From Streptomyces sp. NBC_01294 (GTDB lineage: Bacteria; Actinomycetota; Actinomycetes; Streptomycetales; Streptomycetaceae): a stretch of DNA of 64,000 nt. Position 1 is the stretch's first letter; each line of letters begins with the position of its first letter. The position numbers and the translations under genes were made by a program. Location: assembly GCF_035917235.1 (NCBI RefSeq), contig NZ_CP108423.1:6663501-6727500 (forward strand), read 5' to 3'. This document shows, piece after piece, positions 33,506 to 57,093 of the stretch. The notes beneath the pieces were generated by a model, which was not told where the DNA came from, did no database searches, and saw nothing but the letters and a program-made list of their open reading frames with translations.

Positions 33506-34330
33506 GTGAGCAGAAAGATTCTGGTCATTGTCTCCGAACACGGTTACTGGGCCGAGGAACTGATAGGCCCCGTTTCGAAGTTCGACGAGCGGGGCTACGA
33601 GGTCATATTCGCCACGCCGACCGGAAAGCGTGCACACGCTCTTCCGCCGAGCCTCGACGCGAACTACATCGACCCTCCGCTGGGACGCTCGGTCACGACC
33701 GAGGAGAACGCCCGGCTGGGGCGGGAGTTCGAGCAGTCGAGCCGGCTGGACTCGCCGCTCGACATCGAGGCGTGGGTCCCCGAGCGGCCGTACACGAGCG
33801 ACGAGGGGTACCTGCCCAAGCTGGAGCAGTACCACCGCGATCTGGACAAGCTCGACGCCGAAATCGCCGGATACGACGCGATCCTCATCGTCGGCGGCAG
33901 CGGCCCGATCGCCGACCTCGCCAACAACGAGCGCGTGCACGCCCTGATCCTGGCCTTCCAGAAGGCCGGCAAGGTCGTGGCCGCGGAGTGCTACGGGGTC
34001 GCCTGCCTGGCCTTCGCCCGGGACTGGAGCGACCGCAAGAGCATCATCTGGGGCAAGCACGTGACCGGCCACTGCAAGGAGTACGACTACAAGGACGGCA
34101 CCGGATTCCTCGGTACCGACTTCAACATGGGGCCGCCGCCGTATCCGCTGGAGTACATCCTGCGCGACGCGACGGGCCCGAGCGGCGCGTACCACGGGAA
34201 CTTCGGCAAGCCGGTCTCGGTGATCGTCGACTTCCCCTTCGTCACCGGACGTTCCACCCCCGACTCCTATCTCACGGGGCAGAAGATCGTAGAAGTCCTG
34301 GAGGACGGTCTCACCCGATACGGCTGGTAA
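33506..34330 (+). CDS. DJ-1/PfpI family protein, first gene of the large cluster
   Basis: A 274-aa protein. GTG 33506 is chosen because TGGAGG ends 5 nt upstream and the DJ-1 core begins at once (SRKILVIVSEHGYWAEELIG); the frame is open further upstream to 33362 without a ribosome binding site. The nucleophile elbow is AECYGVACL with Cys162, and VGGSGPIADLANNERV precedes it. It is longer than simple DJ-1 proteins, with insertions around residues 50-105 and a C-terminal YHGNFGKPVSVIVDFPFVTG. DJ-1 homologues act as glyoxalase III, deglycase, hydratase or chaperone. The substrate here is unknown. It opens a run of about 24 plus-strand genes. Confidence 0.85.
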   Translation: MSRKILVIVSEHGYWAEELIGPVSKFDERGYEVIFATPTGKRAHALPPSLDANYIDPPLGRSVTTEENARLGREFEQSSRLDSPLDIEAWVPERPYTSDEGYLPKLEQYHRDLDKLDAEIAGYDAILIVGGSGPIADLANNERVHALILAFQKAGKVVAAECYGVACLAFARDWSDRKSIIWGKHVTGHCKEYDYKDGTGFLGTDFNMGPPPYPLEYILRDATGPSGAYHGNFGKPVSVIVDFPFVTGRSTPDSYLTGQKIVEVLEDGLTRYGW

Positions 34331-34372
34331 TCCCGGAGGCCGCAGAGAAATCGGAGAGTTGAGGGGGAATTC

Positions 34373-36010
34373 ATGGAAGCCACTCCCGGACGGGAAAGGC
34401 TGATCGAGCAGTTCAAGGCCGACGGCCTGAATGTGATGTTCGGAAATCCGGGGACGGTGGAACAGGGATTCCTCGACGCGGTGGACGCGGCGGAGGACTT
34501 CCACTACATCCTCGCCCTCCAGGAGACCGTGGCCGCCGGCATCGCCGACGGGTACGCCCGGGCGACCGGCGGCGCGGCCCTGCTCCAGCTGCACTCCGGG
34601 GTGGGTCTGGGCAACGGCATCGGCATGCTCTACCAGTCGCTGCGCGGCCACACCCCGCTCGTCGTGGTCGCCGGTGACGCCGGGGTGCGCTACGACGCCA
34701 TGGACGCGCAGATGGCGTCCGATCTGGTGGCGATGGCGAAGCCGGTGACCAAGTACGCGACCCGGGTCACCGACCCGCGGTCCGTGCTCCGCACCATCCG
34801 GCGGGCCGTGAAGATCGCGCTCACCCCGCCCCGGGGGCCCGTGTTCGTGGCGCTGCCGATGGACGTGCTGGACGAGCTCAACTCCGAGCCCGTCCTGCCG
34901 GCCACGGTGCCGCTCACGGACGTGGCGCCCTCGCCCGCCTCGGTGGGGCGGGCGGCCGAGCTGCTCGCCTCCGCCGAGCGGCCGGTCGTCCTGATCGGGG
35001 ACGGGGTCGCGCTCTCCGGGGCGCAGTACGAGCTCGCCGCCGTCGCCGAGCTGCTGGGCGCCGACGTGTACGAGGTCGACTCCTCCGAGGTGAACATCGC
35101 GGCCTCGCACCCGCTGCGGCGCGGCCAGACCGGCCACATGTTCGGCCCGCACAGCAAGGAGCTGATCGGGGACGCCGACGGGGTCCTGATCGTCGGCACC
35201 TACGTCTTCCCGGAGGTGTTCCCCGAGCTGGAGAGCCCCTTCCGGGCCGGTGCGAAGGTCGTCCACATCGACCTCAACGCCTACGAGATCGCCAAGAACC
35301 ACCCGGTGGACCTCGGCCTGGCCGCCGACCCCAAGCAGGCACTGCGCGCCCTGGCCGGCGTACTGGACCGGCTGCTGACCCCGCAGCGCAGGGCCGCGGC
35401 GGCCGCCCGGCTCGACGTACGGCGCCGGGAACGGACCCGCGAGGCGCAGTCGGCCACGGACGACGGCACGCCGATGGCCCTCTTCCTCAAGACCCTGGCC
35501 GAGCGCACCGGCGGGGACCTGATCGTCTTCGACGAGGCACTGACCACCTCCCCGCTGGTCACGCGCTACCTGCCGGCGGAGCGTCCCGGCGACTACCACC
35601 TGACCCGGGGCGGTTCGCTGGGCGTGGGCTTCCCGGGCGCGGTCGGCGCCAAGCTGGCCCGGCCGGAGCGGCTCGTGGTCGGCTTCGCGGGCGACGGCGG
35701 CTCCATGTACACGTACCAGGCGCTGTGGACCGCGGCCCGGCACGGCATCGACGCCAAGTTCGTCGTCTGCAACAACCGCAAGTACCGGCTGCTGGACGAC
35801 AACATCGCCCAGTACTGGCGCGAGCGGGACATCCCGGAGCACGGCTTCCCGGGCTCCTTCGACCTCTCGCACCCCGAGATCGACTTCGCCGGGCTGGCCC
35901 GGTCGCTCGGCGCCGGCGGGATGCGGGTGGAGAAGCCGGACGAGGCGGTCGCCGCCGTGGGCCGGATGCTGTCCCACCCCGGACCGTTCCTCGTCGACAT
36001 CCAGATCTGA
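34373..36010 (+). CDS. ThDP-dependent benzoylformate decarboxylase-type enzyme
   Basis: A 545-aa protein from ATG 34373 with GAGGGGGA upstream. It has the full three-domain PYR/central/PP layout of ThDP enzymes. Glu51 (LALQETVAAG) should activate the cofactor, and the ThDP-Mg motif is GDGG at 440-443 ending in Asn467-Asn468. A His at LQLHSGVGLGNGIGMLYQSL matches the substrate-binding SAAGTGN-like region of benzoylformate decarboxylase. It would decarboxylate a 2-oxo acid to an aldehyde or ligate aldehydes. The downstream SnoaL proteins, GMC oxidoreductase and aldehyde dehydrogenase fit an aldehyde-producing step. Exact substrate unknown. Confidence 0.88.
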   Translation: MEATPGRERLIEQFKADGLNVMFGNPGTVEQGFLDAVDAAEDFHYILALQETVAAGIADGYARATGGAALLQLHSGVGLGNGIGMLYQSLRGHTPLVVVAGDAGVRYDAMDAQMASDLVAMAKPVTKYATRVTDPRSVLRTIRRAVKIALTPPRGPVFVALPMDVLDELNSEPVLPATVPLTDVAPSPASVGRAAELLASAERPVVLIGDGVALSGAQYELAAVAELLGADVYEVDSSEVNIAASHPLRRGQTGHMFGPHSKELIGDADGVLIVGTYVFPEVFPELESPFRAGAKVVHIDLNAYEIAKNHPVDLGLAADPKQALRALAGVLDRLLTPQRRAAAAARLDVRRRERTREAQSATDDGTPMALFLKTLAERTGGDLIVFDEALTTSPLVTRYLPAERPGDYHLTRGGSLGVGFPGAVGAKLARPERLVVGFAGDGGSMYTYQALWTAARHGIDAKFVVCNNRKYRLLDDNIAQYWRERDIPEHGFPGSFDLSHPEIDFAGLARSLGAGGMRVEKPDEAVAAVGRMLSHPGPFLVDIQI

Positions 36011-36054: not shown

Positions 36055-36489
36055 ATGCCCGCCGAGCGGCAGCTGACCGAGGACGCGATCCGCAGTTTCG
36101 CCGAGAACTGGTACGTGGCGCTGGACCAGCACGTGGGTCTGGACGACGTGCTCGCCCTGATCACCGAGGACCTGGAGTTCCAGGTCCCCGAGGACACCTT
36201 CCTCGGGCACGAGGGCTTCGGCCGCTGGTACGCGGCCGTCACCCACCGCTTCTTCGACGAGGTGCACACGGTCGTGAAGGTGGAGCCCGTCATCGAGGGC
36301 GACCGGGCCGTCGTCCGCGTCCTCGTCAACTGGCAGGCCAAGATCTGGGACCCGCCGGCCGCCCGCAGCCAGTGGCTCGGCTTCGACGCCGACCAGACCT
36401 GGACCGTGGTGGCCGGTCCCGACGGACCGCTGATCAAGCAGTACACCGTCAACGACCTGGCGCCCATGCCCGGTTCCGGCTCGCTCTGA
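36055..36489 (+). CDS. SnoaL/NTF2-like protein 1
   Basis: A 144-aa protein from ATG 36055 with AGGAGGA 8 nt upstream. It has a cone-like NTF2 fold pattern: a helical start (AIRSFAENWYVALDQHVGLD), TEDLEFQVPEDTFLGHEGFG and alternating strands ending with QYTVNDLAPMPGSG. Such proteins are lyases, isomerases or ligand-binding subunits. It is the first of three in a row, each with its own good ribosome binding site. No catalytic assignment is possible. Confidence 0.82.
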   Translation: MPAERQLTEDAIRSFAENWYVALDQHVGLDDVLALITEDLEFQVPEDTFLGHEGFGRWYAAVTHRFFDEVHTVVKVEPVIEGDRAVVRVLVNWQAKIWDPPAARSQWLGFDADQTWTVVAGPDGPLIKQYTVNDLAPMPGSGSL

Positions 36490-36512: not shown

Positions 36513-36968
36513 ATGACCGAAGTGACACGGGAGCGGGTCGGGGCGGCCTACGCCGCCCTCGGCTCCGGCGACCGGGCGCGCATCCTGGAGTACTACTCGG
36601 AGGACCTGCGCTGGCTGGTGCCGGGCAACCACCCGCTGGCCGGCTGGTACGAGAGCCTGGACGCCTTCCTGGAACTGATGGGCCAGACCCACAAGCTCAC
36701 GGGCGGCACCTTCCGGATGGACCTGGAGGCGGTCCTCGTCGGCGAGGACTGTTCCGCGGACGTGTGCCGCAACGTCGCCCTGCGGGACGGAGCGGCTCAG
36801 GACAGCCGGTCCCCGTACGAGCGGATGGACTACCCCGTCTTCCACTTCATGCGGTGGCGGGACGGCCGGATCGTCGAGGGCCGCGACGGGCTCTTCGGAG
36901 ACTCGGCGGCCGCCTTCAGCCAGTTCTGGGCGCCGTTCGCGCCGGACGGAACCCGCAGGGACCGATAG
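36513..36968 (+). CDS. SnoaL/NTF2-like protein 2
   Basis: A 151-aa protein from ATG 36513 with AAGGAGAAG upstream. It reads MTEVTRERVGAAYAALGSGD, then YYSEDLRWLVPGNHPLAGWY, the W-x-x-P-G-x-H-P-L-A-G signature of the SnoaL-like group, and a C-terminal PVFHFMRWRDGRIVEGRDG. It starts 23 nt after SnoaL 1 and may form a heteromer with it. Function unknown; candidate ring-forming or hydrating enzyme. Confidence 0.84.
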   Translation: MTEVTRERVGAAYAALGSGDRARILEYYSEDLRWLVPGNHPLAGWYESLDAFLELMGQTHKLTGGTFRMDLEAVLVGEDCSADVCRNVALRDGAAQDSRSPYERMDYPVFHFMRWRDGRIVEGRDGLFGDSAAAFSQFWAPFAPDGTRRDR

Positions 36969-36981
36969 GGGGATGCGCGCG

Positions 36982-37353
36982 ATGGACGCACGACAGATCT
37001 TGACCAAGTACTACGAGTACGCCAACGCCGGGGACTGGGACCGCTGGTGCGACCTGTTCGCCGACGACCAGGTGATGGACGAGCAGCTCGCCGGCCACAT
37101 CGAGGGCCTGGAGGTCCTGCGCTCGATGATGAAGGGCATGGGCACGATGTACCGGGTCTTCCGGAACGAGCCCGTGCACTTCATCGTCGACGGCGAGAAG
37201 GCCGCGGCCGTCTCGCACCTGACCGCGGTCAGCGCCTCCGGTGAGGCCATCGAGGCCGAGGTCATGAACTTCTTCCGGATCGTGGACGGAAAGATCGCCT
37301 ACATGGCGAACTACCACGACACGGTTCCCTTCCAGGTGCTGAGCCAGGGCTGA
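36982..37353 (+). CDS. SnoaL/NTF2-like protein 3
   Basis: A 123-aa protein. ATG 36982 (MDARQILTKYYEYANAGDWD) is preferred over ATG 36973 because the GGGGG stretch abuts the latter. It shows DRWCDLFADDQVMDEQLAGH and ends EVMNFFRIVDGKIAYMANYH, the conserved SnoaL pattern of an ion-pair plus Tyr/His in the pocket. It precedes the GMC oxidoreductase by 10 nt, so the two are co-translated. Confidence 0.84.
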   Translation: MDARQILTKYYEYANAGDWDRWCDLFADDQVMDEQLAGHIEGLEVLRSMMKGMGTMYRVFRNEPVHFIVDGEKAAAVSHLTAVSASGEAIEAEVMNFFRIVDGKIAYMANYHDTVPFQVLSQG

Positions 37354-37363
37354 GGGGGGACCC

Positions 37364-38968
37364 GTGAGCGTCGAAGAGTACGACTACATCGTCGTGGGAT
37401 CCGGCACCGCGGGCAGCGTGCTGGCGGCCCGGCTCTCCGAGGACCCGGACGTCTCCGTCCTCGTCCTGGAGGCGGGCGGCTCGCGGATCCCGCCCGAGGT
37501 GGACGACCCGTCCTCCTGGTACAAGCTCCTCGGCGGGCCCGTGGACTGGGGCTACACCAGTACCCCGCAGCCCGGCCTCGACGGCCGCCGTACGTACGAA
37601 CCGCGCGGCAAGGCCCCCGGCGGCAGCAGCAACCTCTACATCATGATGCACATCCGGGGCCACGCCTCGGACTTCGACAACTGGGCCTACCAGGGCGCGG
37701 CCGGCTGGGCGCACGAGGACGTGCTCCCGTACTTCGCCCTGCTGGAGGGCCAGGAGGACGTCACCGCCGCCACCACCGGCACCCGGGGTCCGCAGCGGAT
37801 CACCCACGCCGGGCGGCACGGCCCCAACCCGGTCTCCCGGGCCTTCATCGACGCCGCCGTCGAGCTGGGCCACGAGGAGATCGCCGACTTCAACACCGAC
37901 GGTCCCCGGCGCGGCCTCTTCGGCACCGGCTGGCACCACATCGACGTGGCCGACGGCCGCCGCCAGGGGGCGCTGGCCGCCTACCTGGAGCCCGCGCTCG
38001 GACGCTCCAACCTGACCCTGCGCACCAACGCGCAGTCCACCCGGCTGCTCTTCGACGGGGACACCTGCACGGGCGTCGAGTACGCCCAGCTGCGGGCCCC
38101 CGCCGAGATCCCGGGCCGGACCGTCCGGGACGGACACAGCAGCGCCGCCGCGCCCGGGCTGCACACCGTACGGGCCCGCCGGGAGGTGGTCGTGGCCGCG
38201 GGGGCGATCGAGTCCCCGAAGCTCCTGCTGCTCTCCGGCATCGGCCACCCCGAGCAGCTGCGCGAGCACGGCATCGAGGTCACCGCGGCCCTGCCCGGGG
38301 TCGGCGAGAACTTCCACAACCACGTCCTGACCGGGCTGATGGCCGAGGTCACCCAGGAGCTCCCGCCGCCGGCGCAGAACCTGTCGGAGAGCGCTCTGTT
38401 CCTGTCCTCGCAGCCCGGGCTGCCCGCGCCGGACCTCCAGATCGCCTTCGTCCACGTGCCCTTCGACGTGATCGTCGGCCAGGACCACCCCAACACGGTG
38501 TCCATCCTGCCGGGGGTCGTACGGCCGGTCTCGCGCGGCTGGATCAGGCTGGCGAGCGCCGACCCGCTGGCCCACCCGCTGATCAACCCGAACTACCTGG
38601 GCGACCGGTGGGACCTGGAGCGGATGGTGCAGGGCGTCAAGATCGCCCGGGAGATCTTCGCGACCTCCGCGTTCTCGCCCTGGTACAAGCAGGAGCTCCA
38701 GCCCGGTCCGGGCTACGTGGGCGACGACGACCTGCGGACCTTCGTGAAGCAGAAGTCGGAGAGCTACCACCACCAGGCCGGCTCCTGCCGCATGGGCATC
38801 GACGACCTCTCCGTCGTCGACCCCGAGCTGCGGGTGCACGGCGTGCGCAACCTGCGCGTCGTCGACGCCAGCGTGATGCCCGCGGTCCCGTCGGGCAACT
38901 GCCACACCGCCATCGCGATGATCGCCGAGCGCGCGGCGGACTTCCTGAGGGGGGTGTCCCGTGCCTGA
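37364..38968 (+). CDS. GMC family FAD oxidoreductase
   Basis: A 534-aa protein from GTG 37364 with GAGGGGGG upstream. It has the FAD Rossmann loop GSGTAG (12-17), the GMC signature 1 region (GKAPGGSSNLYIMMHIRGHA), signature 2 (GAIESPKLLLLSGIG) and the catalytic His pair region at the C-terminus (His469/His470 in SYHHQAGSCRMG, His514 in SGNCHTAIAM). GMC enzymes oxidise alcohols, sugars or choline to aldehydes or lactones using O2 or a quinone. Overlap of its stop with the next DJ-1 gene argues they act together. It could supply an aldehyde or H2O2 in this pathway. Confidence 0.92.
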   Translation: MSVEEYDYIVVGSGTAGSVLAARLSEDPDVSVLVLEAGGSRIPPEVDDPSSWYKLLGGPVDWGYTSTPQPGLDGRRTYEPRGKAPGGSSNLYIMMHIRGHASDFDNWAYQGAAGWAHEDVLPYFALLEGQEDVTAATTGTRGPQRITHAGRHGPNPVSRAFIDAAVELGHEEIADFNTDGPRRGLFGTGWHHIDVADGRRQGALAAYLEPALGRSNLTLRTNAQSTRLLFDGDTCTGVEYAQLRAPAEIPGRTVRDGHSSAAAPGLHTVRARREVVVAAGAIESPKLLLLSGIGHPEQLREHGIEVTAALPGVGENFHNHVLTGLMAEVTQELPPPAQNLSESALFLSSQPGLPAPDLQIAFVHVPFDVIVGQDHPNTVSILPGVVRPVSRGWIRLASADPLAHPLINPNYLGDRWDLERMVQGVKIAREIFATSAFSPWYKQELQPGPGYVGDDDLRTFVKQKSESYHHQAGSCRMGIDDLSVVDPELRVHGVRNLRVVDASVMPAVPSGNCHTAIAMIAERAADFLRGVSRA

Positions 38969-39572
38969 AGCCGTCCTGCGCGAGGGTGCGCTGTCCGGGA
39001 CCCGGATCGCGGTCCTGGTCGAGAGCGACTACTACGAGCCGGAGATCTTCTACTACCAGCACCGGTTCGCGGAGGAGGGCGCCGAGGTCGACTTCCTGAC
39101 CCGGCTGTGGGGCAACGACTCCATCACCTTCACCGGGCACGAGTACCGGGCGCCGTTCACCGCGAACCAGTCCCTGGAGGGGCTGGGCGACGACGACCTG
39201 CGCCGGTACGCGGCGATCATCGTGCCCTCCGGCATGGTGGCCGACCGGCTGCGCTACACCGAGGACGTGGACGTCCTCGCCCCGGCGACGGAGCTGCTGC
39301 GCCGGGCCTTCGAGGAGCCGACCGTCCTCAAGGGGATCATCTGCCACGGGATGTGGCTGGCCTCCTCGATCCCGGACAAGGTGCGCGGCCGCAAGGTCGT
39401 CTGCCACAACAACCTCATCGGCGACGTCCGGAACATGGGCGCCCAGTACGTCGACGAGGACGTGGTGGTCGACGGGGACCTGGTCACCGGCCGCACCGGC
39501 GCCCACCACCACCTCTTCGCCCGCCGGATCATCGAACTGATCGCGGCCGGGCGGGGCCGGGGAGCCGGCTGA
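38961..39572 (+). CDS. DJ-1/PfpI family protein 2
   Basis: A 203-aa protein from GTG 38961, overlapping the GMC gene by 8 nt. It begins with a short extension and then TRIAVLVESDYYEPEIFYYQ with the conserved Glu of the DJ-1 active site (EPEIFYY), and the elbow IICHGMWLASS with Cys128. KVVCHNNLIGDVRNMGAQYV and the C-terminal HHHLFARRI are typical of PfpI/deglycase-type members. Likely a hydrolase or deglycase on reactive carbonyl adducts; substrate unproven. Confidence 0.88.
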   Translation: MPEAVLREGALSGTRIAVLVESDYYEPEIFYYQHRFAEEGAEVDFLTRLWGNDSITFTGHEYRAPFTANQSLEGLGDDDLRRYAAIIVPSGMVADRLRYTEDVDVLAPATELLRRAFEEPTVLKGIICHGMWLASSIPDKVRGRKVVCHNNLIGDVRNMGAQYVDEDVVVDGDLVTGRTGAHHHLFARRIIELIAAGRGRGAG

Positions 39573-40018
39573 TGGCGGGCGCCGCGGACCGGCCGATGGT
39601 CTGGTCGCACGTGGGCCTCAACTGCAGGGACCAGAAGACCACCGAGGATTTCTACACCCGCTACTTCGGCTTTGCCCGGGCCCGGGTGGTCGACCTCGGA
39701 GAGGCCAAGATCGTGTTCCTGCGCAAGGGGGACGCGTACCTGGAGCTCTTCGCGGCCGACGCCGAACCGGCCCGCGAGGCTCACGACGACGGCCCGCAGG
39801 CCCCGGGCCGGATGCGCCACCTGGCCTTCCAGACCGACAGCGTGGACGCGTTCCTGGCCGGACTGGGCGACGCGGCGGAAGTGACCCTGGGACCGCTGGA
39901 CTTCGACGACTTCATCTGCGGGTGGCGGACCGTGTGGGTCCGCGATCCCGACGGGGTGATCGTCGAGGTCAGCCAGGGATACGAGGACGACAGCACTCAC
40001 GACAAGGACGGTGCATGA
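39572..40018 (+). CDS. Glyoxalase/VOC superfamily protein
   Basis: A 148-aa protein with ATG 39572 sharing one base with the previous stop. The two beta-alpha-beta-beta-beta VOC modules are visible: WSHVGLNCRDQKTTEDFYTR (first metal-ligand His) with AYLELFAADAE, and MRHLAFQTDSVDAFL (second His) with WVRDPDGVIVEVSQ (final Glu). All ligand positions of a metal-dependent VOC enzyme are thus occupied. It may be a glyoxalase I-like, dioxygenase or epimerase enzyme. Confidence 0.88.
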   Translation: MAGAADRPMVWSHVGLNCRDQKTTEDFYTRYFGFARARVVDLGEAKIVFLRKGDAYLELFAADAEPAREAHDDGPQAPGRMRHLAFQTDSVDAFLAGLGDAAEVTLGPLDFDDFICGWRTVWVRDPDGVIVEVSQGYEDDSTHDKDGA

Positions 40019-40019: not shown

Positions 40020-41843
40020 ATGGCGGATGCCGTGAGCTTCTCCTTCTCCGACACCATCGCGGGCTACGTCGTCCGCTTCGACTCCGGTACCCGCGTGCTG
40101 CGGCTGAAGACCTCGGACGGCCGGGAGTTCGACGTCTCCCTGGCCGGCGACCCCAGCGCCGAGCTGGTCCGCAACCTGGACGAGCCCTACATCGACGCCT
40201 CCGGGCACATCGACGAGATGCTCTCCCCGGGCCGGTTCCTCTTCGTCTACGGAGTCCACTACCCGGAGCGGGGCGGGCGTTTCGACGCCAAGCGCCTGGT
40301 GTTCCTGGGCCGCGGCGCCGAGGACTACCGCTTCGAGGAGCCCAGCTGGTGGATCAAGCAGATCGAGTCGCTGGCCGACTTCTACAAGCGGGCGCAGTTC
40401 GGCGACGGGCCGGTGGACTTCACCGAGTACCGCACCGAGATCCGGCTCGGCGGTGACAAGACCGCCAGCCACGTCCAGGAGACCGACACGATCTCCCGCC
40501 TGGTCTACGGCATGGCCTCGGCCTACCTGCTGACCGGCAAGGACGAGTACCTGGAGGTCGCCGAGCGCGGCACCGAGTACCTGCGCAAGCACATGCGGGT
40601 CGTGGACGGCGAGGAGGACGTGGTCTTCTGGTACCACGGCATCAGCGTCGACGGGGACAGCGAACGCAAGCTGTTCACCTCGGAGTTCTCCGACGACTAC
40701 GACGCGATCCCGATGTACGAGCAGATCTACGCGCTGGCCGGACCCATCCAGACGTACCGGATCACCGGTGACGTCCGGATCAAGAACGACGCGGACGCCA
40801 CCATCCGGCTGTTCGACAAGTTCTTCTTCGACCCGGAGCAGGGCGGCTACTACTCGCACATCGACCCGATCCTCTTCAGCGCCGACCACGAGTCCCTCGG
40901 AGAGAACGCCGAGCGCAAGAACTGGAACTCGGTCGGCGACCACGCGCCCGCGTACCTGATCAACCTGTACCTGGCGACCGGCGACCAGAAGTACGCCGAC
41001 TTCCTCGAATACACCTTCGACACCATCGCGGACAAGTTCCCGGACTACAAGAACAGTCCCTTCGTCCAGGAGCGCTTCTTCCGCGACTGGTCGCACGACA
41101 AGGCGCACAGCTGGCAGCAGGACCGCGCCGTGGTCGGCCACAACCTGAAGATCGCCTGGAACCTGATGCGGATGAACTCGCTGAAGGCCAAGCCGGCGTA
41201 CGAGGAGCTCGCCAAGAAGATCGGCGAGATCATGCCCGCGGTCGGCAGCGACGTGCAGCGGGGCGGCTGGTACGACGTCGTCGAGCGGCTCAAGTCCGGG
41301 GACGAGGAGACGTATCGTTTCGCCTGGCACGACCGCAAGGCCTGGTGGCAGCAGGAGCAGGCGATCCTCGCCTACCTCATCCTGAACGGCACGGTCGGCG
41401 GCGACGCGAACCTGCGCGAGGCCCGGCAGGCGCAGGCCTTCTACAACACCTTCTTCCTCGACCACGACGAGGGCGCCGTCTACTTCAACGTGCTCGCCAG
41501 CGGCACGCCGTACCTGCTCGGCACCGAGCGGCTCAAGGGCAGCCACTCGATGTCCATGTACCACTCGGCGGAGCTCTGCTATCTCTCCGCCGTCTACAAC
41601 AACCTGCTCATCAACGGCCGGGAGATGGACTTCCACTTCCAGCCCGACCCGACCAACCTGCCCGACCGCGTCCTGCGCGTCTCGCCCGACCTGCTCCCGG
41701 CCGGCTCGGTGCGGATCGCGTCCGTGGAGATCGACGAGAAGCCGTACACCGACTTCGACGCCGACGCCCTCACCGTGCGGCTGCCCGACGTCCAGGGGCG
41801 GGTGAAGGTCAAGGTCCGGCTGCGTCCAGTGGCCAAGAAGTAG
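40020..41843 (+). CDS. AGE-type (alpha/alpha)6-barrel protein with N-terminal beta domain
   Basis: A 607-aa protein. ATG 40020 has AAGGA 11 nt upstream; GTG 40011 is a less likely start. Residues 1-100 form a beta-rich domain (TIAGYVVRFDSGTRVLRLKT). The rest resembles the N-acylglucosamine 2-epimerase/cellobiose epimerase barrel, with SHVQETDTISRLVYGMASAY, FRDWSHDKAHSWQQDRAVVG, GHNLKIAWNLMRM and WWQQEQAILAYLIL, where the His and Glu residues match the catalytic pattern of AGE enzymes (paired His on the barrel rim). It probably isomerises or epimerises a sugar or hydrolyses a glycoside. Being next to STAS and GlgX genes links it to carbohydrate metabolism. Confidence 0.82.
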   Translation: MADAVSFSFSDTIAGYVVRFDSGTRVLRLKTSDGREFDVSLAGDPSAELVRNLDEPYIDASGHIDEMLSPGRFLFVYGVHYPERGGRFDAKRLVFLGRGAEDYRFEEPSWWIKQIESLADFYKRAQFGDGPVDFTEYRTEIRLGGDKTASHVQETDTISRLVYGMASAYLLTGKDEYLEVAERGTEYLRKHMRVVDGEEDVVFWYHGISVDGDSERKLFTSEFSDDYDAIPMYEQIYALAGPIQTYRITGDVRIKNDADATIRLFDKFFFDPEQGGYYSHIDPILFSADHESLGENAERKNWNSVGDHAPAYLINLYLATGDQKYADFLEYTFDTIADKFPDYKNSPFVQERFFRDWSHDKAHSWQQDRAVVGHNLKIAWNLMRMNSLKAKPAYEELAKKIGEIMPAVGSDVQRGGWYDVVERLKSGDEETYRFAWHDRKAWWQQEQAILAYLILNGTVGGDANLREARQAQAFYNTFFLDHDEGAVYFNVLASGTPYLLGTERLKGSHSMSMYHSAELCYLSAVYNNLLINGREMDFHFQPDPTNLPDRVLRVSPDLLPAGSVRIASVEIDEKPYTDFDADALTVRLPDVQGRVKVKVRLRPVAKK

Positions 41844-41880: not shown

Positions 41881-42227
41881 ATGACTCTCAACGTCAAGGA
41901 ACGCCGGAACAAGACGGGCACCGTGCTCGTCGCCACCGGCGAGATCAACAGCGAGACATCCGGCTCGCTGCTCCAGGCCCTGCTGCCGCTCGTCCGCGAG
42001 GGCAAGCCGCTGAAGATCGACCTCACCGCGGTCACCTACGTCTCCAGCGCCGGCCTGCGCACCCTGCTCGTCGTCTACCGCGAGGCGCAGCACGCCGGCG
42101 TCGCCGTCACCCTCTACGGGGTGAGCGAGGAAGTCCGGTTCGTCATGTCGGCCACCGGCTTCCTCGACTTCTTCGAGACCGGCGAGGCCGTCGCGGCGGC
42201 CGCCAAGGCCAAGGCCAAGGCAGCACG

Positions 42228-42231
<4 letters not shown>
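41881..42231 (+). CDS. STAS-domain anti-sigma factor antagonist 1
   Basis: A 116-aa protein from ATG 41881 with AGAGGGGAA upstream. It is a single STAS domain: VLVATGEINSETSGSLLQAL and then IDLTAVTYVSSAGLRTLLVV, with Ser56 at the position phosphorylated in SpoIIAA/RsbV. The C-terminus is an Ala/Lys repeat tail (AAAAKAKAKAAR). It should be switched by the RsbW-like kinase and RsbU-like phosphatase encoded 3 kb downstream. It overlaps glgX by ATGA, an unusual coupling of a regulatory protein to a glycogen enzyme. Confidence 0.92.
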
Positions 42232-50152: not shown

Positions 50153-50679
50153 AGGTGAACGGAAGACCCGAGCAGTTCTCGGCACAGCCGAACGAACTGC
50201 TCGTGGAACGGCTCCGCGACGGCCTCGGACTGACCGGAACCAAGGTCGGCTGCGACACCGGCCAGTGCGGCTCCTGCGTCGTCCGGCTCGACGGCAGGTC
50301 CGTCAAGAGCTGCCTGGTCCTCACCGCCGCGGCCGCCGGCTCCGAGGTGGCCACCATCGAGGGCGTCACCACCCCCGGCGGTGAACTGTCCGGCCTCCAG
50401 GAGGCACTGCGCCAGGAGCACGGCACCCAGTGCGGCTTCTGCACCCCCGGCATGGTCATGGCCCTCGGCGAGCTCGTCGACTCCACCGCCGGCGGCGCGG
50501 CCCCCACCGAGCCCGAGATCCGCGAGTGGCTCACCGGGAACCTGTGCCGCTGCACCGGCTACCACAGCGTCGTACGGGGCGTGCAGCGCGCCTGCGCGGC
50601 CACCCGCGCCGAGGCGCCCGCCGGTCTCCCCGAGGCCGGCACCGTCGCCGCATCCACCGCTGCCGGACAGGAGGTGTGA
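50137..50679 (+). CDS. Molybdenum hydroxylase [2Fe-2S] subunit (CoxS/XdhA-type)
   Basis: A 180-aa protein from ATG 50137 within the previous gene's end. Both iron-sulphur centres are intact: the plant-type site Cys39, Cys44, Cys47, Cys59 (GCDTGQCGSCVV) and the second at Cys99, Cys102, Cys137, Cys139 (CGFCTPGMV; NLCRCTGYH). It passes electrons from the molybdenum subunit to FAD in xanthine-dehydrogenase, aldehyde-oxidase or CO-dehydrogenase-type enzymes. A C-terminal Ala/Thr-rich tail of about 25 residues is unusual but harmless. Confidence 0.94.
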   Translation: MDITLKVNGRPEQFSAQPNELLVERLRDGLGLTGTKVGCDTGQCGSCVVRLDGRSVKSCLVLTAAAAGSEVATIEGVTTPGGELSGLQEALRQEHGTQCGFCTPGMVMALGELVDSTAGGAAPTEPEIREWLTGNLCRCTGYHSVVRGVQRACAATRAEAPAGLPEAGTVAASTAAGQEV

Positions 50680-50684
50680 GGGAC

Positions 50685-53090
50685 ATGACCGCAGTGACGG
50701 GGGACGCCCCTGCCGTGGGAGGCGGAGTGCTCGGGCAGCCGCTGGACAGCCGCGAGGACCCGCAGCTGCTGCGCGGCGAGGCGACGTACGTGGCGGACAT
50801 CGATCTGCCGGGCACCGCGCACATGGCCATCCTGGGCAGCCCGGTGGCCCACGCGAAGATCCTCTCCATCCAGACCAAGGCGGCCGAACAGCTGCCCGGC
50901 GTGCTGAAGGTGGCCACCGCCGCCGACTTCACCGACGTCATGCCGCTGCCCTGCATCTGGATCCCGGGCGGGGTCGAGAGCCACTTCCCGCCCCACCCCT
51001 ACGGACTTCCCGGCGCCCGCCCGGTCCTGACCGGCGACACCGTGCGGCACGTCGGCGACCCCATCGCCGTGGTCGTCGCCGAGACCCCGCGCCAGGCCGC
51101 CGCGGCGCTGGCCGCCATCGCCGTCGAGTACGAGCCGCTGCCCGTGGTCACCCGGGCCGACGAGGCGCTCGCCGACGGCGCGCCCCAGCTCCACGAGGCC
51201 GTGCCGGGCAACCTGAACGCGTACTGGACCTGCGGCGACAAGGACCGCACCGACGCGGCCATCGCCGGGGCCGAGGTCACCGTCGAGCTCGACCTGGTCA
51301 ACCAGCGCACCATCAACAGCCCCATCGAGCCGCGCGGCGCGGTCGGCGACTACAACGCCGCCACCGGCGAGTACACGCTCTACGCCACCACCCAGGGCCC
51401 GCACAACCACCGCTTCCTGCTCTCCGCGCTGGTCCTCGGCATCCCCTTCAACAAACTCCGGGTGATCGCCCCGACCGTCGGGGGCAGCTTCGGCACCAAG
51501 GGCTACCTGTACCCCGACATGGCGCTGGTCCTGCTGCTCTCCAAGGCGCTCGGCCGGCCCGTGAAGTGGGTGGACACCCGCACCGGCCTGATGAACTCCA
51601 CCGTCCAGGGCCGTGACCACCGCCAGCACGTCACGCTGGCCGGCACCCGCGACGGCCGGATCACCGCCGTGCGCTGCACCAGCTACGCCAACCTCGGCGC
51701 GTACCCCTCGACGATCGGCCCCGGTGTCGCCACCGCCCTGATGGGCCGCTCCATCAGCGGGATGTACGACATCGACGCCGCGTTCTGCGAGGTCTACGCC
51801 GCCTTCACCAACACCGTCTCGCTCGGCGCCCAGCGCGGCAGCGGGCGCGCCGAGGCCGCCTTCCTCATGGAGCGCCTGGTCGACCGGTACGCCTCCGAGA
51901 TCGGCATGGACCCGGCGGCGGTGCGGCGCAAGAACCTGGTGCCGAAGGAGAAGTTCCCGTACGACAACGGTCTCGGCTGGACCTACGACTCCGGGAACTA
52001 CCAGCTGAACTTCGACAAGGCCATCGAGCTGTCCGGCTACGCCGACATGCCCGCCCGCAAGGCCGAGGCCCGCACCCGCGGCAAGCGCCTCGGCGTCGGC
52101 CTCGCCACGTACGTCGCGATCTGCGGGGTCGGCCCCTCCACCCGGATGTCCCAGGAGGGCATGCTCGGCGGCACCTGGGAGAGCGCGAACATCCGCGTCC
52201 ACCCGACCGGCGAGGTGACCGTCACCGTCGGCTCCGCCTCCACCGGCCAGAGCCACGGCACCGTCTTCGCGCAGGTCGCCGCCGACGAGCTCGGCATCGA
52301 CCCGGACACCGTCCAGGTCCTCGAAGGCGACACGCAGAAGGCCCCGTACGGGCAGGGCACCTACGGCTCCCGCTCCTACAGCATGGCCGCGCCCGCCGTC
52401 GCCCTCACCGCCCGGAAGATCAAGGGCAAGCTGGTCCGGGCCGGCGCCGTCTTCCTCGGCGTCCCCGAGGACAAGGTCGTCTACGCGGGCGGCAAGGTCT
52501 ACGAAGAGGGCAACGAGGAGAACACCAAGACCTTCGCCGAGCTGGCGATGGCCATGTGGTACGGCTGGGGACTGCCCCCGGAGATCGAGCCGGCCCTCGA
52601 CGAGACCACCCACTTCGACCCGCCGGACTTCAACTACCCCTTCGGGACGCACGTCGCGGTCGTCGAGATCGACGAACTGACCGGCGAGACCGAGGTGGTG
52701 GCCTACACCGCCGTCGACGACGCCGGGAACATCGGCAACCCGAAGATCGTCCACGGGCAGATCGAGGGCAGCATCGTCCACGGCCTCGGCCAGGCCCTCA
52801 TGGAGATCGCCGAATACGACGAGAACGGGCTGCTCGTCAGCGCCGACCTGGGCCACTACGCCCTGCCGCGCGCCGCCGACGTGCCGTTCTTCACGCTCGA
52901 CAAGACCGTCACGCCCAGCCCGCACAACCCGCTCGGCGCCAAGGGCGCGGGCGAGATCGCCACCGTCCCGCCCGCCGCGGCCGTCGTCAACGCCGTCGTC
53001 GACGCCCTCGCCGACCTGGGCGTCCGGCACATCGACATGCCGGTCACCCCCGAGAAGGTCTGGCGCCGCCTGAGAGGGGAATCCCAGTGA
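50685..53090 (+). CDS. Molybdenum hydroxylase large (molybdopterin) subunit
   Basis: An 801-aa protein from ATG 50685 with GTGAGGGA upstream. It has the CoxL/XDH architecture: N-terminal [49 protein letters not shown], the active-site loop GAQRGSGR at 381-388, and the catalytic Glu757 in [10 protein letters not shown]. The loop resembles the AYRGAGR of form II CO-dehydrogenase-like enzymes, not the AYRCSFR of true CO dehydrogenase, so it is an aldehyde or N-heterocycle hydroxylase rather than a CO oxidiser. It needs sulphurated Mo-cytosine dinucleotide, and xdhC lies 6 kb downstream. No cofactor genes such as mobA are close. Confidence 0.93.
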
Positions 53091-53911
53091 TCCTCACCGA
53101 GTTCGACTACGTCCGGCCCACCGGCCTCGACGAGGCGCTGACCCTGCTGTCCGGGACGCGCGGCGCCCGGGTCCTGGCCGGCGGGCAGAGCCTGCTCCCC
53201 GACCTGCGCACGGGAGCCGAGCACGCCCGGCTGCTCGTCGACATCCGGCAGCTGGCGGACCTGCGGGGCATCGGGCGCACGGCCGACGGGATCCGCATCG
53301 GGGCGCTGACCACGCTCGCCGAACTCGCCACGGACCCGCTGGTGCTCGCCGAGGCACCGGAACTGGCCGCCGCGGCCCGCTCCAACGGCGACCCCCAGGT
53401 CCGCAACCTCGGCACCGTCGGCGGCAACCTCGCCGCCGCCGGGCGGGCCACCGACCTGCCCGTCGCCGCGCTCGCCGCCGACGCCGTCGTCGAACTGGCC
53501 GGTCCCGGCGGGCGGTCGACCCTGACTGCCGAGGAGTTCGCGGCCGGCAGCGCACCCGCCGGCACCGTCCTCACCGCCCTGCTGGTGCCCGCCGCCGGGC
53601 AGGCCGCCGCCTTCGAGAAGACCGCCGACCGGGCCACCCGCTACCCGGTGTGCGCCACCGCCGTACGGATCACCCCGAACGGCCCGCGCATCGCCGTCAC
53701 CGGAGCCACCTCCCGCGCGCTGCGGCTGCGCGGGGTCGAGGACCGGCTGCGCGGGGGTCCGTACAGCACGGACGCCGTGCTCGCCGCCTTCCGCGCCGAA
53801 CCCCGGGAGCTCTTCGTCCCCGGGCGCGGCACCTCGGCCGAGTACCTCGGCCACCTCGCGGGGGTCCTCACGGCCCGAGCCTTGCAGAGGGCCGGTCGGG
53901 CACTCGCCTGA
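53087..53911 (+). CDS. Molybdenum hydroxylase FAD subunit (CoxM-type)
   Basis: A 274-aa protein from GTG 53087 (GTGA overlap). It shows the CoxM/XDH FAD-binding motifs VLAGGQSLLPDLRTG and RNLGTVGGNLAAAGRATDLP, and a C-terminal domain (CATAVRITPNGPRIAVTGAT). Subunit order is small, large, medium, i.e. FeS-Mo-FAD. Together the three genes encode a complete heterotrimer whose natural acceptor (NAD, quinone or O2) is unknown. Confidence 0.93.
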   Translation: MILTEFDYVRPTGLDEALTLLSGTRGARVLAGGQSLLPDLRTGAEHARLLVDIRQLADLRGIGRTADGIRIGALTTLAELATDPLVLAEAPELAAAARSNGDPQVRNLGTVGGNLAAAGRATDLPVAALAADAVVELAGPGGRSTLTAEEFAAGSAPAGTVLTALLVPAAGQAAAFEKTADRATRYPVCATAVRITPNGPRIAVTGATSRALRLRGVEDRLRGGPYSTDAVLAAFRAEPRELFVPGRGTSAEYLGHLAGVLTARALQRAGRALA

Positions 53912-53965
53912 CCGGCCGCCACGGGGCCCGGAACGGGGCCCATCACGGGGGAGTTGAGTGAAGCA

Positions 53966-55231
53966 GTGGCCGAATCATCCAAGACGACCACGGGAGTGAC
54001 CGTGCACCCAGCCGCCCGCACGGCCCGTGCGGCCGGCGCGTCCAGAGGCTCCGGCTTCTGGGTGGTGGGCGCGGTGCTCGTCCTGCTGATGCTCTCCTCC
54101 TCCGTGCCCTCCGCCCTCTACGTGCTCTACCAGCAGGAGTGGGGGCTGTCCTCCGGCACGATCACGGTGGTCTTCGCCCTGTACGCCGTCACCGTGCTCG
54201 CCGGGCTCCTGCTCTTCGGGTCCCTCTCCGACACCCTGGGCCGGCGCCCGGTCCTGGCCGCCGGACTGGTCCTGGCGATCGTCTCCATGGCCCTGTTCGC
54301 CGCGGCCCAGGGGCTCGGGCTGCTCCTGGCCGCCCGCGCCGTGCAGGGGCTCGCCGTGGGCCTCGCCACCGGGGCGATGGGCGCGGCCCTGCTCGAACTC
54401 AGCCCCGCGTCGCGGCCCGCGCTCGGCGCCCAGGTCAACAGCGCTGGCCCGACCGTGGGCATCGGCCTTGGCGGGCTCGGCGCCGGACTGCTCGTGCAGT
54501 TCGCGCCCGCGCCGACCGTCCTGAGCTACCTGCTGCTGGTCGGGGCCTTCGCCGTGACCCTGGTGGGGGTGATCCGGATGCGAGAGAGCGCTCCGGGCGC
54601 CGGGGGCCGCTTCCGGGTGGTCCCGCACCGGATCCACGTACCGGCCGGCGCCCGCGGCCGCTTCGCCGTCCTTGTCCTGACCATCGTCGCCGTCTGGTCG
54701 GTGGGCGGCTTCTACCTCTCGCTCGGCCCGCACCTGGCGCTCTCGCTGCTGCAGTCCACCAACTACCTCGTCGGCGGCGCCACGGTCGCCCTGCTCGCCG
54801 GCGCCGCCACCGTCGCCCAGCTGGTGCTCGGCCGCACCGAGGCGCTGCGCACCGCCGTCCTCGGACTGCTCGGGCTGCTCGCCGGACTCGGCCTGGTGCT
54901 GCTGGCGCTGGGCCTCGGCTCGGCCGCCGTGTTCCTGGTGGCCACGGCCGTGCTCGGCAGCGGCTGGGGCGCCGCCTTCCTCGGTTCCTTCCGCGCGCTG
55001 AGCATGCTCGCCGAACCGGCGCACCGCGGTGAACTGACCGCCGCCGTCTACGTCTTCGCGTACCTCGCCATGAGCGCGCCGGCGGTCCTCGCCGGGATGC
55101 TCACCAACATCCACGGACTGCACCGCACCTCGGTCGGCTTCATGGCCGCCGTCGCGGGGGTGTGCGCGCTGGCCCTGCTGGCCACGCTGCGGCTGGCCGC
55201 CCGTACCCGCGCCGAGGGGAGCACGGCGTGA
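53966..55231 (+). CDS. MFS transporter
   Basis: A 421-aa membrane protein. GTG 53966 is chosen because GGGGGA ends 13 nt upstream; TTG 53954 is an in-frame alternative. About 12 hydrophobic segments are visible, with the MFS loop motif FGSLSDTLGRRPVLAAGLVL between TM2 and TM3. The N-terminus of about 30 residues is cytoplasmic and Ala/Thr-rich. It is an exporter or importer of a cluster substrate; it does not resemble a sugar-specific clade in any way I can see. Its stop overlaps the histidine-kinase start. Confidence 0.88.
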   Translation: MAESSKTTTGVTVHPAARTARAAGASRGSGFWVVGAVLVLLMLSSSVPSALYVLYQQEWGLSSGTITVVFALYAVTVLAGLLLFGSLSDTLGRRPVLAAGLVLAIVSMALFAAAQGLGLLLAARAVQGLAVGLATGAMGAALLELSPASRPALGAQVNSAGPTVGIGLGGLGAGLLVQFAPAPTVLSYLLLVGAFAVTLVGVIRMRESAPGAGGRFRVVPHRIHVPAGARGRFAVLVLTIVAVWSVGGFYLSLGPHLALSLLQSTNYLVGGATVALLAGAATVAQLVLGRTEALRTAVLGLLGLLAGLGLVLLALGLGSAAVFLVATAVLGSGWGAAFLGSFRALSMLAEPAHRGELTAAVYVFAYLAMSAPAVLAGMLTNIHGLHRTSVGFMAAVAGVCALALLATLRLAARTRAEGSTA

Positions 55232-56739
55232 GCGCCACGGAGCTGAGGTCCGCCCTGCACGGGCTGGAGATCTTCGCCGGGATCACCGACGAGCAGCTGG
55301 ACTGGCTGGTCTCGGTCTCGCAGCCGCGGGTCCTCGCCGACGGCGAGGTGCTCTTCCGGGACGGCGAGGAGGCCACCGGCTTCCACGTCCTGCTCTCGGG
55401 CGGTCTGGTCGTCACCAAGGTCGTCGACGGCCGGGAGGAGGTGCTCACCCGGCACTCCACCGAGGAGGAGAGCGCCGCCGCAGAGGACCACGACGGCAAG
55501 CCGTCGGCCGCGCACCGGTTCACCGGCGAGCTGCCGCTGCTGACCGACGGCGCGTACGTGGCCACCGCGGCCGCGAGCGGCCCGTCGACCACCGTCGTGG
55601 CGTACCCCAAGGCGGTCTTCTTCGAGATGCTGACCCGGTGCCACGGGGTGGCCGCCGTACTCATCCCCGTGCTGGCCTGGCGGATCAAGTCCTCCGAGGT
55701 GCAGGCCCGTAAACGGGCCACCGTGGAGGCGCTCGGCACGCTCGCCGCCGGGCTCGCGCACGAGCTGAACAACCCCGCGGCGGCCGTGGCCCGGGCGGCG
55801 CAGGAACTGGCCCCCGCCCTGGACCGGCTCACCCGCACCGCCCAGGCCTGGGGTGCGGCCGCCACCGGCGCGGAGCGCTCCGTCTTCGACCGGCTCGCCG
55901 ACGAGCTGGACAAGCTGCCGCCGCCGCTGACCACCGACCCGTTCGCCCAGGCCGACGCCGAGGAGGAGATCGCCGACTGGGCCGAGGAGGCGGGCACCGA
56001 ACGGCCCGGCCTGCTCGGCTCGGGGGTCTCGGACCTCGGCCTGGAGCTGGGCTGGCTGCTGGAGCGGCTGGAGGGAGTCGGCGAGCCGGCCCTCGCCTGC
56101 GCCCTGGACCACCTGGCGGCGCTGCTGGAGATCCGCTCGCTCGCCGCGGAGCTGCGGGCCGCGGGCCCCAGGATCTCCCAACTGGTCGCAGCGACCCGGG
56201 ATTACGCCAATCTCGACCGGGCGCCCGAACAGCGCTTCCGGGTGACCGAGGGGCTGGAGAACACGCTGGTCGTGCTGCGTGCCAAGCTCGCCGGCATCAG
56301 CATCGTGCGTGAGTACGAGCCCGACCTGCCCGAACTGACGGGCTATCCGAGCGAGTTGAACCAGGTGTGGACCAACCTGGTCGACAACGCCGCCGAGGCC
56401 ATGGAGGGCTCCGGCGTACTGACCCTGCGCGCCCGCGCCGAGGGCGTCTGCTTGCACGTCGAGATCGCCGACACCGGCCGCGGCATCCCGGAGGAATCCC
56501 TGCCGCGGATCTTCGAACCCTTCTACACCACCAAGGACGTGGGCAAGGGCACGGGACTGGGGCTGCACCTCAGCTACCGCATCGTGACCCAGCGCCACCA
56601 CGGGTCGATCACCGCCCACTCGCGGCCCGGTGAGACCCGGATGGTGGTCCGGCTGCCCTTCGCCGGCAGCGCCCGGTCCTGCGCCTCACCTGCCACGACA
56701 CCCGATACGGCACCCGCCGAGGGCACCTTCCCGAGTTGA
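55228..56739 (+). CDS. Histidine kinase with cyclic-nucleotide-binding-like input domain
   Basis: A 503-aa protein from GTG 55228, overlapping the transporter stop. Residues about 10-150 form a cNMP-binding-like beta roll (IFAGITDEQLDWLVSVSQPR; GFHVLLSGGLVVTK; GELPLLTDGAYVAT in the phosphate-cassette position). The H box is GLAHELNNP with His178. HATPase boxes follow (VWTNLVDNAAEAM, DTGRGIPEESL, KDVGKGTGLGLHLSYRI). A long helical insert (about 200-320) separates H box and ATPase domain. No membrane segment exists, so it is cytoplasmic. No response regulator is adjacent; it may signal to the receiver fusion at 31.2 kb or feed the partner switch. Confidence 0.88.
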   Translation: MSATELRSALHGLEIFAGITDEQLDWLVSVSQPRVLADGEVLFRDGEEATGFHVLLSGGLVVTKVVDGREEVLTRHSTEEESAAAEDHDGKPSAAHRFTGELPLLTDGAYVATAAASGPSTTVVAYPKAVFFEMLTRCHGVAAVLIPVLAWRIKSSEVQARKRATVEALGTLAAGLAHELNNPAAAVARAAQELAPALDRLTRTAQAWGAAATGAERSVFDRLADELDKLPPPLTTDPFAQADAEEEIADWAEEAGTERPGLLGSGVSDLGLELGWLLERLEGVGEPALACALDHLAALLEIRSLAAELRAAGPRISQLVAATRDYANLDRAPEQRFRVTEGLENTLVVLRAKLAGISIVREYEPDLPELTGYPSELNQVWTNLVDNAAEAMEGSGVLTLRARAEGVCLHVEIADTGRGIPEESLPRIFEPFYTTKDVGKGTGLGLHLSYRIVTQRHHGSITAHSRPGETRMVVRLPFAGSARSCASPATTPDTAPAEGTFPS

Positions 56740-56751
56740 AACGGAGTCGAC

Positions 56752-57093
56752 ATGGCCAAGTACGACATCTCCAAGCTGCACCCGGTGTTCGTCCGTCAGA
56801 TGGACGCGCTCGCCGCCCTGGACATCGAGGCGGTGATGAAGAACTACACCGACGACGCGGTGCTGCTGCGCTTCGAGGGGGTCTCGGTGGGCATCGAAGC
56901 CGTTCGCGAGACGTTCACCGGCTATCTCACCGTGAAGCCCACCCTGGTGGAACTCCAGGAGTACATCGAGACCGAGGACACCATCTTCTACCGGGCGATC
57001 ATGAACCTCAACGGTGAACCGGAGCACGCGTTCGGGACACTTGTCGTCCGCGATGGCCGGATCTGGCGGCAGACTGCGGGATTCGGCGGCTGA
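56752..57093 (+). CDS. SnoaL/NTF2-like protein 4
   Basis: A 113-aa protein from ATG 56752, 12 nt after the kinase. It reads MAKYDISKLHPVFVRQMDAL, then KNYTDDAVLLRFEGVSVGIE and HAFGTLVVRDGRIWRQTAGF, the NTF2/SnoaL pattern (as in DUF4440/SnoaL_2). It has the same fold as the three proteins at 36-37.3 kb but clusters with the kinase. It closes the large cluster and is followed by a terminator-like hairpin. It may be a ligand sensor or a small isomerase. Confidence 0.85.
   Translation: MAKYDISKLHPVFVRQMDALAALDIEAVMKNYTDDAVLLRFEGVSVGIEAVRETFTGYLTVKPTLVELQEYIETEDTIFYRAIMNLNGEPEHAFGTLVVRDGRIWRQTAGFGG

Follow-up and report, generated by a model that had tools for sequence, protein, structure and literature searches.

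What holds together 24 tightly packed genes that combine redox enzymes with a regulatory switch, and do they form a single unit? The question is raised by positions 33506–57093 of a 64,000-nucleotide stretch of the Streptomyces sp. NBC_01294 genome (contig NZ_CP108423.1), which was analysed as a whole and is referred to below as the window. An earlier note, made from the sequence alone, had described these genes as one pathway, regulated by a partner switch and linked to glycogen use. Gene calls and Pfam confirmed that all 24 lie on the plus strand and encode the families listed, including three DJ-1/PfpI, four SnoaL-like and two STAS proteins; neighbouring genes overlap by 1, 4, 8, 16 or 19 nt or are separated by 0–44 nt. 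The sole larger gap, between a ParA-like ATPase gene and the third DJ-1 gene (DJ1c), measures 69 nt or 30 nt, depending on the DJ1c start. However, the 24 genes are probably not one unit. Their conserved core, at 33506–47170, is in our judgement probably an actinobacterial icfG-type carbon-storage control operon, with a sigma factor as its most likely target and with carbonyl enzymes attached, and DJ1c and the genes after it make up a tail, a distinct addition specific to its lineage.

The core was delimited by synteny. We picked 80 loci from species-representative genomes by similarity of the AGE-fold sugar epimerase/isomerase (AGE) alone, these being the top 80 among 570 confirmed relatives, and searched each for counterparts of the window proteins. 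The set comprises 25 loci of the S. virginiae clade (with the Streptomyces virginiae protein the window AGE shares 97% identity), 36 of other Actinomycetota and 19 from outside this phylum. The core reads DJ1a, thiamine diphosphate (ThDP) enzyme, three SnoaL genes and GMC, DJ1b, VOC, AGE, STAS1, glgX, STAS2, RsbW, RsbU and ParA, where the SnoaL/GMC block and VOC are optional. Virginiae-clade loci of sufficient length retain every gene from DJ1a through the Mo subunit, which is little informative for such close relatives. The counts in the 36 other actinobacterial loci are 34 for STAS1, 35 for glgX, 34 for STAS2, 33 each for RsbW and RsbU and 26 for ParA, with 30 for DJ1a, 29 for ThDP and 30 for DJ1b at the front; in the middle they fall to 16 for GMC, 8 for VOC and 10, 4 and 10 for SnoaL1, SnoaL2 and SnoaL3. 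Co-conservation of DJ-1 and ThDP with the switch genes, a check suggested by the earlier note, is supported.

The 19 remaining loci are from cyanobacteria, one Chloroflexota metagenome-assembled genome and two Deinococcota ones (one of them short); some contigs are short. Here glgX was found in 19, STAS1 in 17, STAS2 in 15, RsbW and RsbU in 11 each and ParA in 6, and a DJ-1 gene lies upstream of AGE in 14. Two loci are arranged otherwise, with glgX upstream of AGE (L074, L083). Since the order AGE-STAS-glgX-STAS-kinase/phosphatase recurs in Actinomycetota, Cyanobacteriota and, in one metagenome-assembled genome each, Chloroflexota and Deinococcota, the core gene order is more than chance; an order conserved in no other genome, named beforehand as grounds for refutation, is not what we see.

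The same part of the core has a described counterpart, which the earlier note had thought lacking, namely the icfG operon of Synechocystis sp. PCC 6803 (slr1852–slr1862), where AGE, STAS, GlgX/isoamylase, STAS, SpoIIE phosphatase and RsbW-type kinase genes also share one operon. All six lie on one strand in the window. In Synechocystis salina (L082) the order is an slr1852-like gene, a carboxymuconolactone-decarboxylase family (CMD) gene, DJ-1, AGE, STAS, glgX, STAS, SpoIIE phosphatase and RsbW-type kinase; for individual genes of this locus the slr numbering is partly our assumption. As this layout is that published for slr1852–slr1862 of PCC 6803, the window core matches the icfG operon. The relevant section of one report on the latter names Slr1855 as an N-acetylglucosamine 2-epimerase and Slr1856 as an anti-sigma antagonist, beside GlgX1 and IcfG (PMC8670252). 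In the passages of PMC12329169 (2025) that concern this operon, Slr1861 is given as the kinase of Slr1856 and Slr1859, IcfG as the phosphatase of Slr1856, and mutants of the operon as altered in carbon and glucose use in Synechocystis, all citing older work; SigC is placed under the control of Slr1861 with Ssr1600, and Slr1861 is reported to interact with SigC. No description of an icfG-like operon in actinobacteria was found in the open-access literature searched.

Orthology with the icfG operon is argued for by the GlgX tree, which unites four phyla in one clade: of its 30 rows, 28 are AGE-linked GlgX proteins, and 27 of these group together with support of 99/99. The ten non-actinobacterial rows inside this clade are 62–67% identical to the window GlgX, whereas the two paralogues of the host genome, in which the cluster glgX is the third full-length copy, reach 40–42% by blastp (46–47% with another aligner). 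The window GlgX is therefore nearer to the cyanobacterial operon GlgX, represented in the tree by S. salina rather than PCC 6803, than to its own paralogues. The GlgX of Anabaena (L083) falls just outside the clade and is 49% identical. Against solved structures, the window GlgX scores best with plant isoamylase 1, above bacterial GlgX/TreX. S. venezuelae has two GlgX proteins, one of which is an effector of cyclic di-GMP according to the part of PMC9530166 dealing with them; we set aside identity of the window protein with this effector on the ground that the genome has two other full-length GlgX, without aligning the binding residues.

The neighbours of the core in relatives point to alpha-glucan metabolism, on which ground a secondary-metabolite cluster was rejected. 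One or more of the glgC-like, maltokinase, glgE and glgB genes were found in 26 of the 36 actinobacterial loci outside the virginiae clade (maltokinase in 15, glgE in 18, glgB in 21), which bears out the glycogen link suggested earlier. In S. noursei (L046) and S. diastatochromogenes (L052) a glgC-like gene is followed by one unassigned gene, DDE_5, maltokinase, EthD and then DJ1a, ThDP, DJ1b, AGE, STAS, glgX, STAS, RsbW, RsbU, ParA, glgE and glgB, with a flavoprotein gene between maltokinase and EthD in L046 only; the core thus sits between the glgC-like gene and maltokinase on one side and glgE and glgB on the other, maltokinase (Pep2), glgE and glgB being the genes of the Streptomyces GlgE-pathway loci. 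Sphaerisporangium melleum (L060), the nearest relative of the window outside Streptomyces in the GlgX tree, has a glgC-like gene between ParA and DJ1c. Such glucan-synthesis neighbours distinguish the actinobacterial loci from the icfG operon, as do the ThDP, DJ1a, SnoaL, GMC, VOC and ParA genes of the window; conversely, neither an slr1852-like nor a CMD gene is among the listed matches of the 36 loci.

A partner switch had been proposed for this locus, and its parts are present. Ser56 of STAS1 is kept in 75/75 aligned rows and Ser57 of STAS2 in 75/77, with Thr in the other two; from SpoIIAA and RsbV we assume these to be the phosphorylation sites. RsbU carries an N-terminal receiver-like domain that apparently lacks the phospho-acceptor Asp (structure alignment of 19 of 22 rows, L064, L066 and L069 being left out), where the phosphatase of S. 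salina has a dCache-like/HAMP input. By sequence, the switch comprises a kinase of RsbW type, a pair of STAS proteins that keep the phospho-serine and a SpoIIE phosphatase whose N-terminal input domain has been exchanged; its genes are interleaved with those of GlgX and AGE and preceded by those of DJ-1 proteins and a ThDP enzyme. The switch shares the HATPase_c_2 kinase, the phospho-serine STAS and the SpoIIE phosphatase with the RsbU-RsbV-RsbW and SpoIIAA-SpoIIAB switches, but differs from them in that its two STAS genes alternate with genes for sugar enzymes and a sigma gene was not found nearby.

We propose that RsbW would phosphorylate STAS1 and STAS2, and that the phosphatase, sensing a metabolic or redox cue via its N-terminal domain, would strip the phosphate from them. 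Unphosphorylated STAS would sequester RsbW and thereby free the RsbW target, for which a sigma factor with its gene elsewhere is the likeliest candidate. The outcome would be a reset of alpha-glucan breakdown and storage by GlgX and AGE (in relatives also by the glgC-like, maltokinase, GlgE and GlgB products), and the DJ-1, ThDP, VOC and SnoaL/GMC proteins would handle reactive carbonyls arising when stored sugar is mobilised. Both the target of the switch and the function given here to the carbonyl enzymes are inferred.

How far the switch and the enzymes travel together was followed in 391 genomes of the order Streptomycetales, with three to four candidates scored per genome and absence less certain than presence (cut-offs E≤1e-100 for ThDP and E≤1e-60 for RsbU). 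AGE occurs in 43 genomes and ThDP in 43, both in 42, with one AGE-only and one ThDP-only genome; by chance about 5 shared genomes would be expected, although kinship among genomes inflates any p-value. RsbU was found in 26 genomes, in every case no more than 10 kb from AGE; AGE is at least 69% identical to that of the window in exactly these 26 genomes. We call these loci type 1, labelled by RsbU presence, and the others type 2; a comparison by eye showed that the split by identity (at least 69% versus 56–60%) gives identical sets. ThDP lies within 10 kb of AGE in 25/26 type-1 and 5/18 type-2 loci, and within 30 kb in 25/26 and 15/18. Six type-2 loci were inspected: L108, L111 and L112 carry DJ1b-AGE-glgX and L106, L107 and L110 carry glgX-AGE-DDE_5; L108 and L111 also have DJ1a and ThDP, with glgE and maltokinase adjoining on the opposite strand. 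RsbW and RsbU were not seen in any of the six. The metabolic part can thus exist without the switch, and the contrast between the two types identifies the switch as a separable module, gained by or lost from a metabolic core. In a further, class-wide search AGE was found in 8/394 genomes. Streptomyces sp. ISL-87 has two AGE systems (L057, L073), the one having the long virginiae form and the other a form with LtrA upstream.

Several observations weigh against the core being an icfG-type control operon. The kinase gene precedes the phosphatase gene in the window and follows it in S. salina, though kinase-first order also occurs in the cyanobacterial loci L068, L069 and L090. Both RsbW and RsbU are missing in 8 of the 19 non-actinobacterial loci, of which a short contig explains only some; in L062 and L078 the switch genes stand apart on the opposite strand; and the 18 type-2 AGE loci (56–60% identity) have no close RsbU match within 10 kb. 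Within the window, no sigma domain was detected in the 57 open reading frames (ORFs) scanned, some small ORFs being outside the scan, and no glgC, glgE, glgB or maltokinase gene was found beside the core among the ORFs scanned. Finally, it is family membership that suggests a carbonyl role for the DJ-1, ThDP, VOC and SnoaL/GMC proteins.

The absence of a sigma factor among these ORFs bears directly on the best of the alternatives, according to which STAS1 and STAS2 bind AGE or GlgX and regulate them in a phosphorylation-dependent manner, with no sigma factor involved. The STAS1 gene lies between AGE and glgX and the STAS2 gene after glgX, an order kept in four phyla, and in two type-2 loci, L108 and L112, a weak STAS-like match persists beside glgX without an adjacent kinase or phosphatase. 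However, the STAS2 gene is as near to RsbW as to GlgX, and Slr1861 of the icfG operon interacts with SigC in Synechocystis, as stated in the section of PMC12329169 on this pair. We regard such direct control as unlikely.

More doubtful still is a bolder version of the icfG-type reading, in which the switch would be an ancient cross-phylum regulator of glycogen and not a cyanobacterial carbon-uptake device; in actinobacteria it would govern a metabolic island where a natural ThDP carboligase, condensing small aldehydes into sugars, feeds alpha-glucan storage and a domesticated, catalytically dead transposase is a fixed component. Its two additional elements deserve consideration in their own right. 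Among solved structures, the ThDP enzyme is closest to variants of benzoylformate decarboxylase, with the engineered glycolaldehyde synthase 6a50 ranking first. We take Ser26, Glu47, His70 and His281 to be the catalytic set of benzoylformate decarboxylase. All 55 cluster sequences retain Glu47 and His70 and have Thr instead of Ser26, and in all of them Val-Phe stands in place of the catalytic His281 and Gln282 of the natural enzyme; four further rows, two of them type 2, show the same residues, and two ThDP paralogues from the host genome (L119, L121) are without the Val-Phe pair. Because Ser26 and His281-Gln282 are replaced, the natural decarboxylase mechanism is unlikely to be intact. The engineered synthase has seven changes, among them Val281 and Phe282, as listed in the part of PMC6435721 describing it; the other five (at 86, 87, 109, 110 and 460) are not present in the window enzyme. 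That this enzyme is an aldehyde carboligase is a reasonable guess from these residues. A protein search with the ThDP enzyme gave 4901 matches, of which the best 120, all at least 90% identical, provide no control for the frequency of Val281/Phe282. The replacements mark a ThDP enzyme family with an unusual active site.

Residues were also conserved in the other enzymes of the core. Cys162 and Glu18 of DJ1a are kept in 59/59 aligned rows (two probably of DJ1c type), Cys128, His129 and Glu28 of DJ1b in 68/68, and the presumed His/Glu/His/Glu metal ligands of VOC in 36, 38, 38 and 38 of 38. AGE shows the (alpha/alpha)6 fold with an extra N-terminal beta-strand region (24 of 26 rows in the structure alignment, L070 and L084 being left out); its His206, His374 and His437, which we assign to the conserved AGE-superfamily histidine motifs (GHN, WWxQxE), are kept in 79/79.

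The second element is a DDE_5 protein whose relatives are called IS701 transposase in public records. We take DDT and RWxIE to be the IS701 catalytic signatures, and they are also present in a multicopy element (L114). Of 45 aligned rows (in which the catalytic residues were read), 43 are without both signatures and the other two, both copies of one multicopy element in a different genome, have both; the 43 include five that are the same gene fetched twice and four not linked to AGE. The host genome has one full-length DDE_5 and four weaker partial matches near contig ends. Counted as family matches (E≤1e-20), DDE_5 lies within 30 kb of AGE in 42/44 AGE loci from the 43 AGE genomes of the order, and 49/102 matches lie this close to AGE against about 0.7% expected from genome length; it occurs in 25/36 other actinobacterial and 0/19 non-actinobacterial loci. 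An ordinary insertion sequence was rejected on the missing signatures, the single full-length copy and the proximity to AGE in 42/44 loci. Against a cluster-specific gene stand the 53/102 matches elsewhere in the same genomes and the signature-less copies in genomes without AGE (L103–L105; G004, G015, G009). From its residues and recurrence, the protein looks like a recurrent domesticated component, and no description of a domesticated IS701-type protein in Streptomyces was found in the open-access literature searched. If so, a protein derived from a transposase, with a mobile-element annotation, would act as a fixed constituent of a metabolic locus.

It remains to consider whether all 24 genes might, after all, make and clear reactive aldehydes in a single pathway. 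One strand, tight spacing, many carbonyl-related families and retention of the tail in 23–24 of the 25 virginiae-clade loci are in line with this idea. The tail (DJ1c, ALDH, F420-like, Mo hydroxylase, MFS, histidine kinase and SnoaL4) is, however, nearly absent from the 36 other actinobacterial loci, with DJ1c in 6 (1 on the same strand), ALDH in 1, F420-like in 2 and the Mo subunit in 3, and it is alpha-glucan genes that flank the core elsewhere. The plus-strand run does not end with the tail at 57093; it continues through TMEM175, DDE_5, XdhC and an IMPDH-like gene up to 62032. Conservation ends at ParA/DJ1c and coincides there with a GC-rich hairpin (-19.5 kcal/mol; 3/200 shuffles fold equally well), which suggests a split at this point. 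This hairpin and a second, longer one after SnoaL4 have no U tail, and a consensus terminator scan of 33000–51000 gave 5 sites, all on the minus strand, with 5.0 expected; having no plus-strand site, it does not support a U-tailed terminator at ParA/DJ1c and is in keeping with a single pathway. A sigma-70-type promoter scan of the same region found 0 sites against 0.5 expected. As the ParA-DJ1c spacer (47171–47239) is strongly conserved within the virginiae clade, it may hold a DJ1c promoter or operator instead of a terminator; the palindrome arms vary among relatives (e.g., L032), and a stem of at least 7 pairs is present in 14/24 of them by a crude count. Taken together, a single pathway is very unlikely. 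Chance joining of unrelated modules by horizontal transfer, with no shared function, is scarcely credible: patchy occurrence (43/391 genomes), the placement of Sphaerisporangium melleum with the virginiae clade and apart from S. corydalis (L055) in the GlgX tree, and the two AGE systems of ISL-87 would fit it, but identical gene order in four phyla and the joint presence of AGE and ThDP in 42 genomes against about 5 expected do not.

Table 1. Positions in the window of the genes and the hairpin discussed, with the basis of each assignment.
Feature	Position	Strand	Basis and remarks
DJ1a, DJ-1/PfpI-like	33506..34330	+	PF17124/PF01965
ThDP enzyme, benzoylformate-decarboxylase-like, H281V/Q282F	34373..36010	+	Pfam, solved relatives, alignment
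SnoaL1	36055..36489	+	Pfam
SnoaL2	36513..36968	+	Pfam
SnoaL3	36973..37353	+	Pfam
GMC oxidoreductase	37364..38968	+	Pfam
DJ1b, PfpI-like	38961..39572	+	Pfam, alignment
VOC protein	39572..40018	+	Pfam, alignment
AGE-fold sugar epimerase/isomerase	40020..41843	+	Pfam, alignment
STAS1, counterpart of Slr1856 by position	41881..42231	+	Pfam, alignment
GlgX/isoamylase, counterpart of Slr1857	42228..44375	+	Pfam, GlgX tree
STAS2, counterpart of Slr1859 by position	44392..44703	+	Pfam, alignment
RsbW-type kinase (HATPase_c_2), counterpart of Slr1861	44700..45173	+	Pfam, alignment
RsbU, SpoIIE/PP2C phosphatase, counterpart of IcfG/Slr1860	45155..46414	+	Pfam
ParA/MinD-like ATPase	46415..47170	+	Pfam, alignment
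GC-rich hairpin between ParA and DJ1c	47182..47203	+	folding versus shuffles
DJ1c, HchA-like	47240..47980	+	Pfam; start 47201 or 47240; beyond conserved core
Aldehyde dehydrogenase (ALDH)	48014..49498	+	Pfam; lineage-specific tail
NADP/F420 oxidoreductase-like (PF03807)	49538..50152	+	Pfam; tail
Mo hydroxylase, three subunits	50137..53911	+	Pfam; tail
Mo hydroxylase, 2Fe-2S subunit	50137..50679	+	Pfam
Mo hydroxylase, Mo subunit	50685..53090	+	Pfam
Mo hydroxylase, FAD subunit	53087..53911	+	Pfam
MFS transporter	53954..55231	+	Pfam; tail
Histidine kinase with cNMP-binding domain	55228..56739	+	Pfam; tail
SnoaL4	56752..57093	+	Pfam; tail
DDE_5 transposase-like protein without transposase catalytic signatures	57932..59227	+	Pfam, alignment
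XdhC, probable Mo-hydroxylase maturation factor	59227..60378	+	Pfam; 1-nt overlap with DDE_5

Directly upstream of the cluster, and divergent from it, a response-regulator/thioredoxin-reductase fusion is encoded on the minus strand (31214–33171), overlapped by a UBP zinc-finger gene. Further genes, for DUF6507, DUF6177 and barstar-like proteins, lie at 18203–29625 and possibly form a secretion/immunity region.

In Synechocystis the icfG operon is tied to glucose and inorganic-carbon use, and its output is partly known, through the action of Slr1861 on SigC covered in PMC12329169. The same order in non-photosynthetic Streptomyces, often near GlgE-pathway genes, points to glycogen/alpha-glucan handling as the common function of what seems to be a carbon-control system shared by distant bacterial phyla, and makes Streptomyces tractable non-photosynthetic hosts in which an icfG-type system may be studied.

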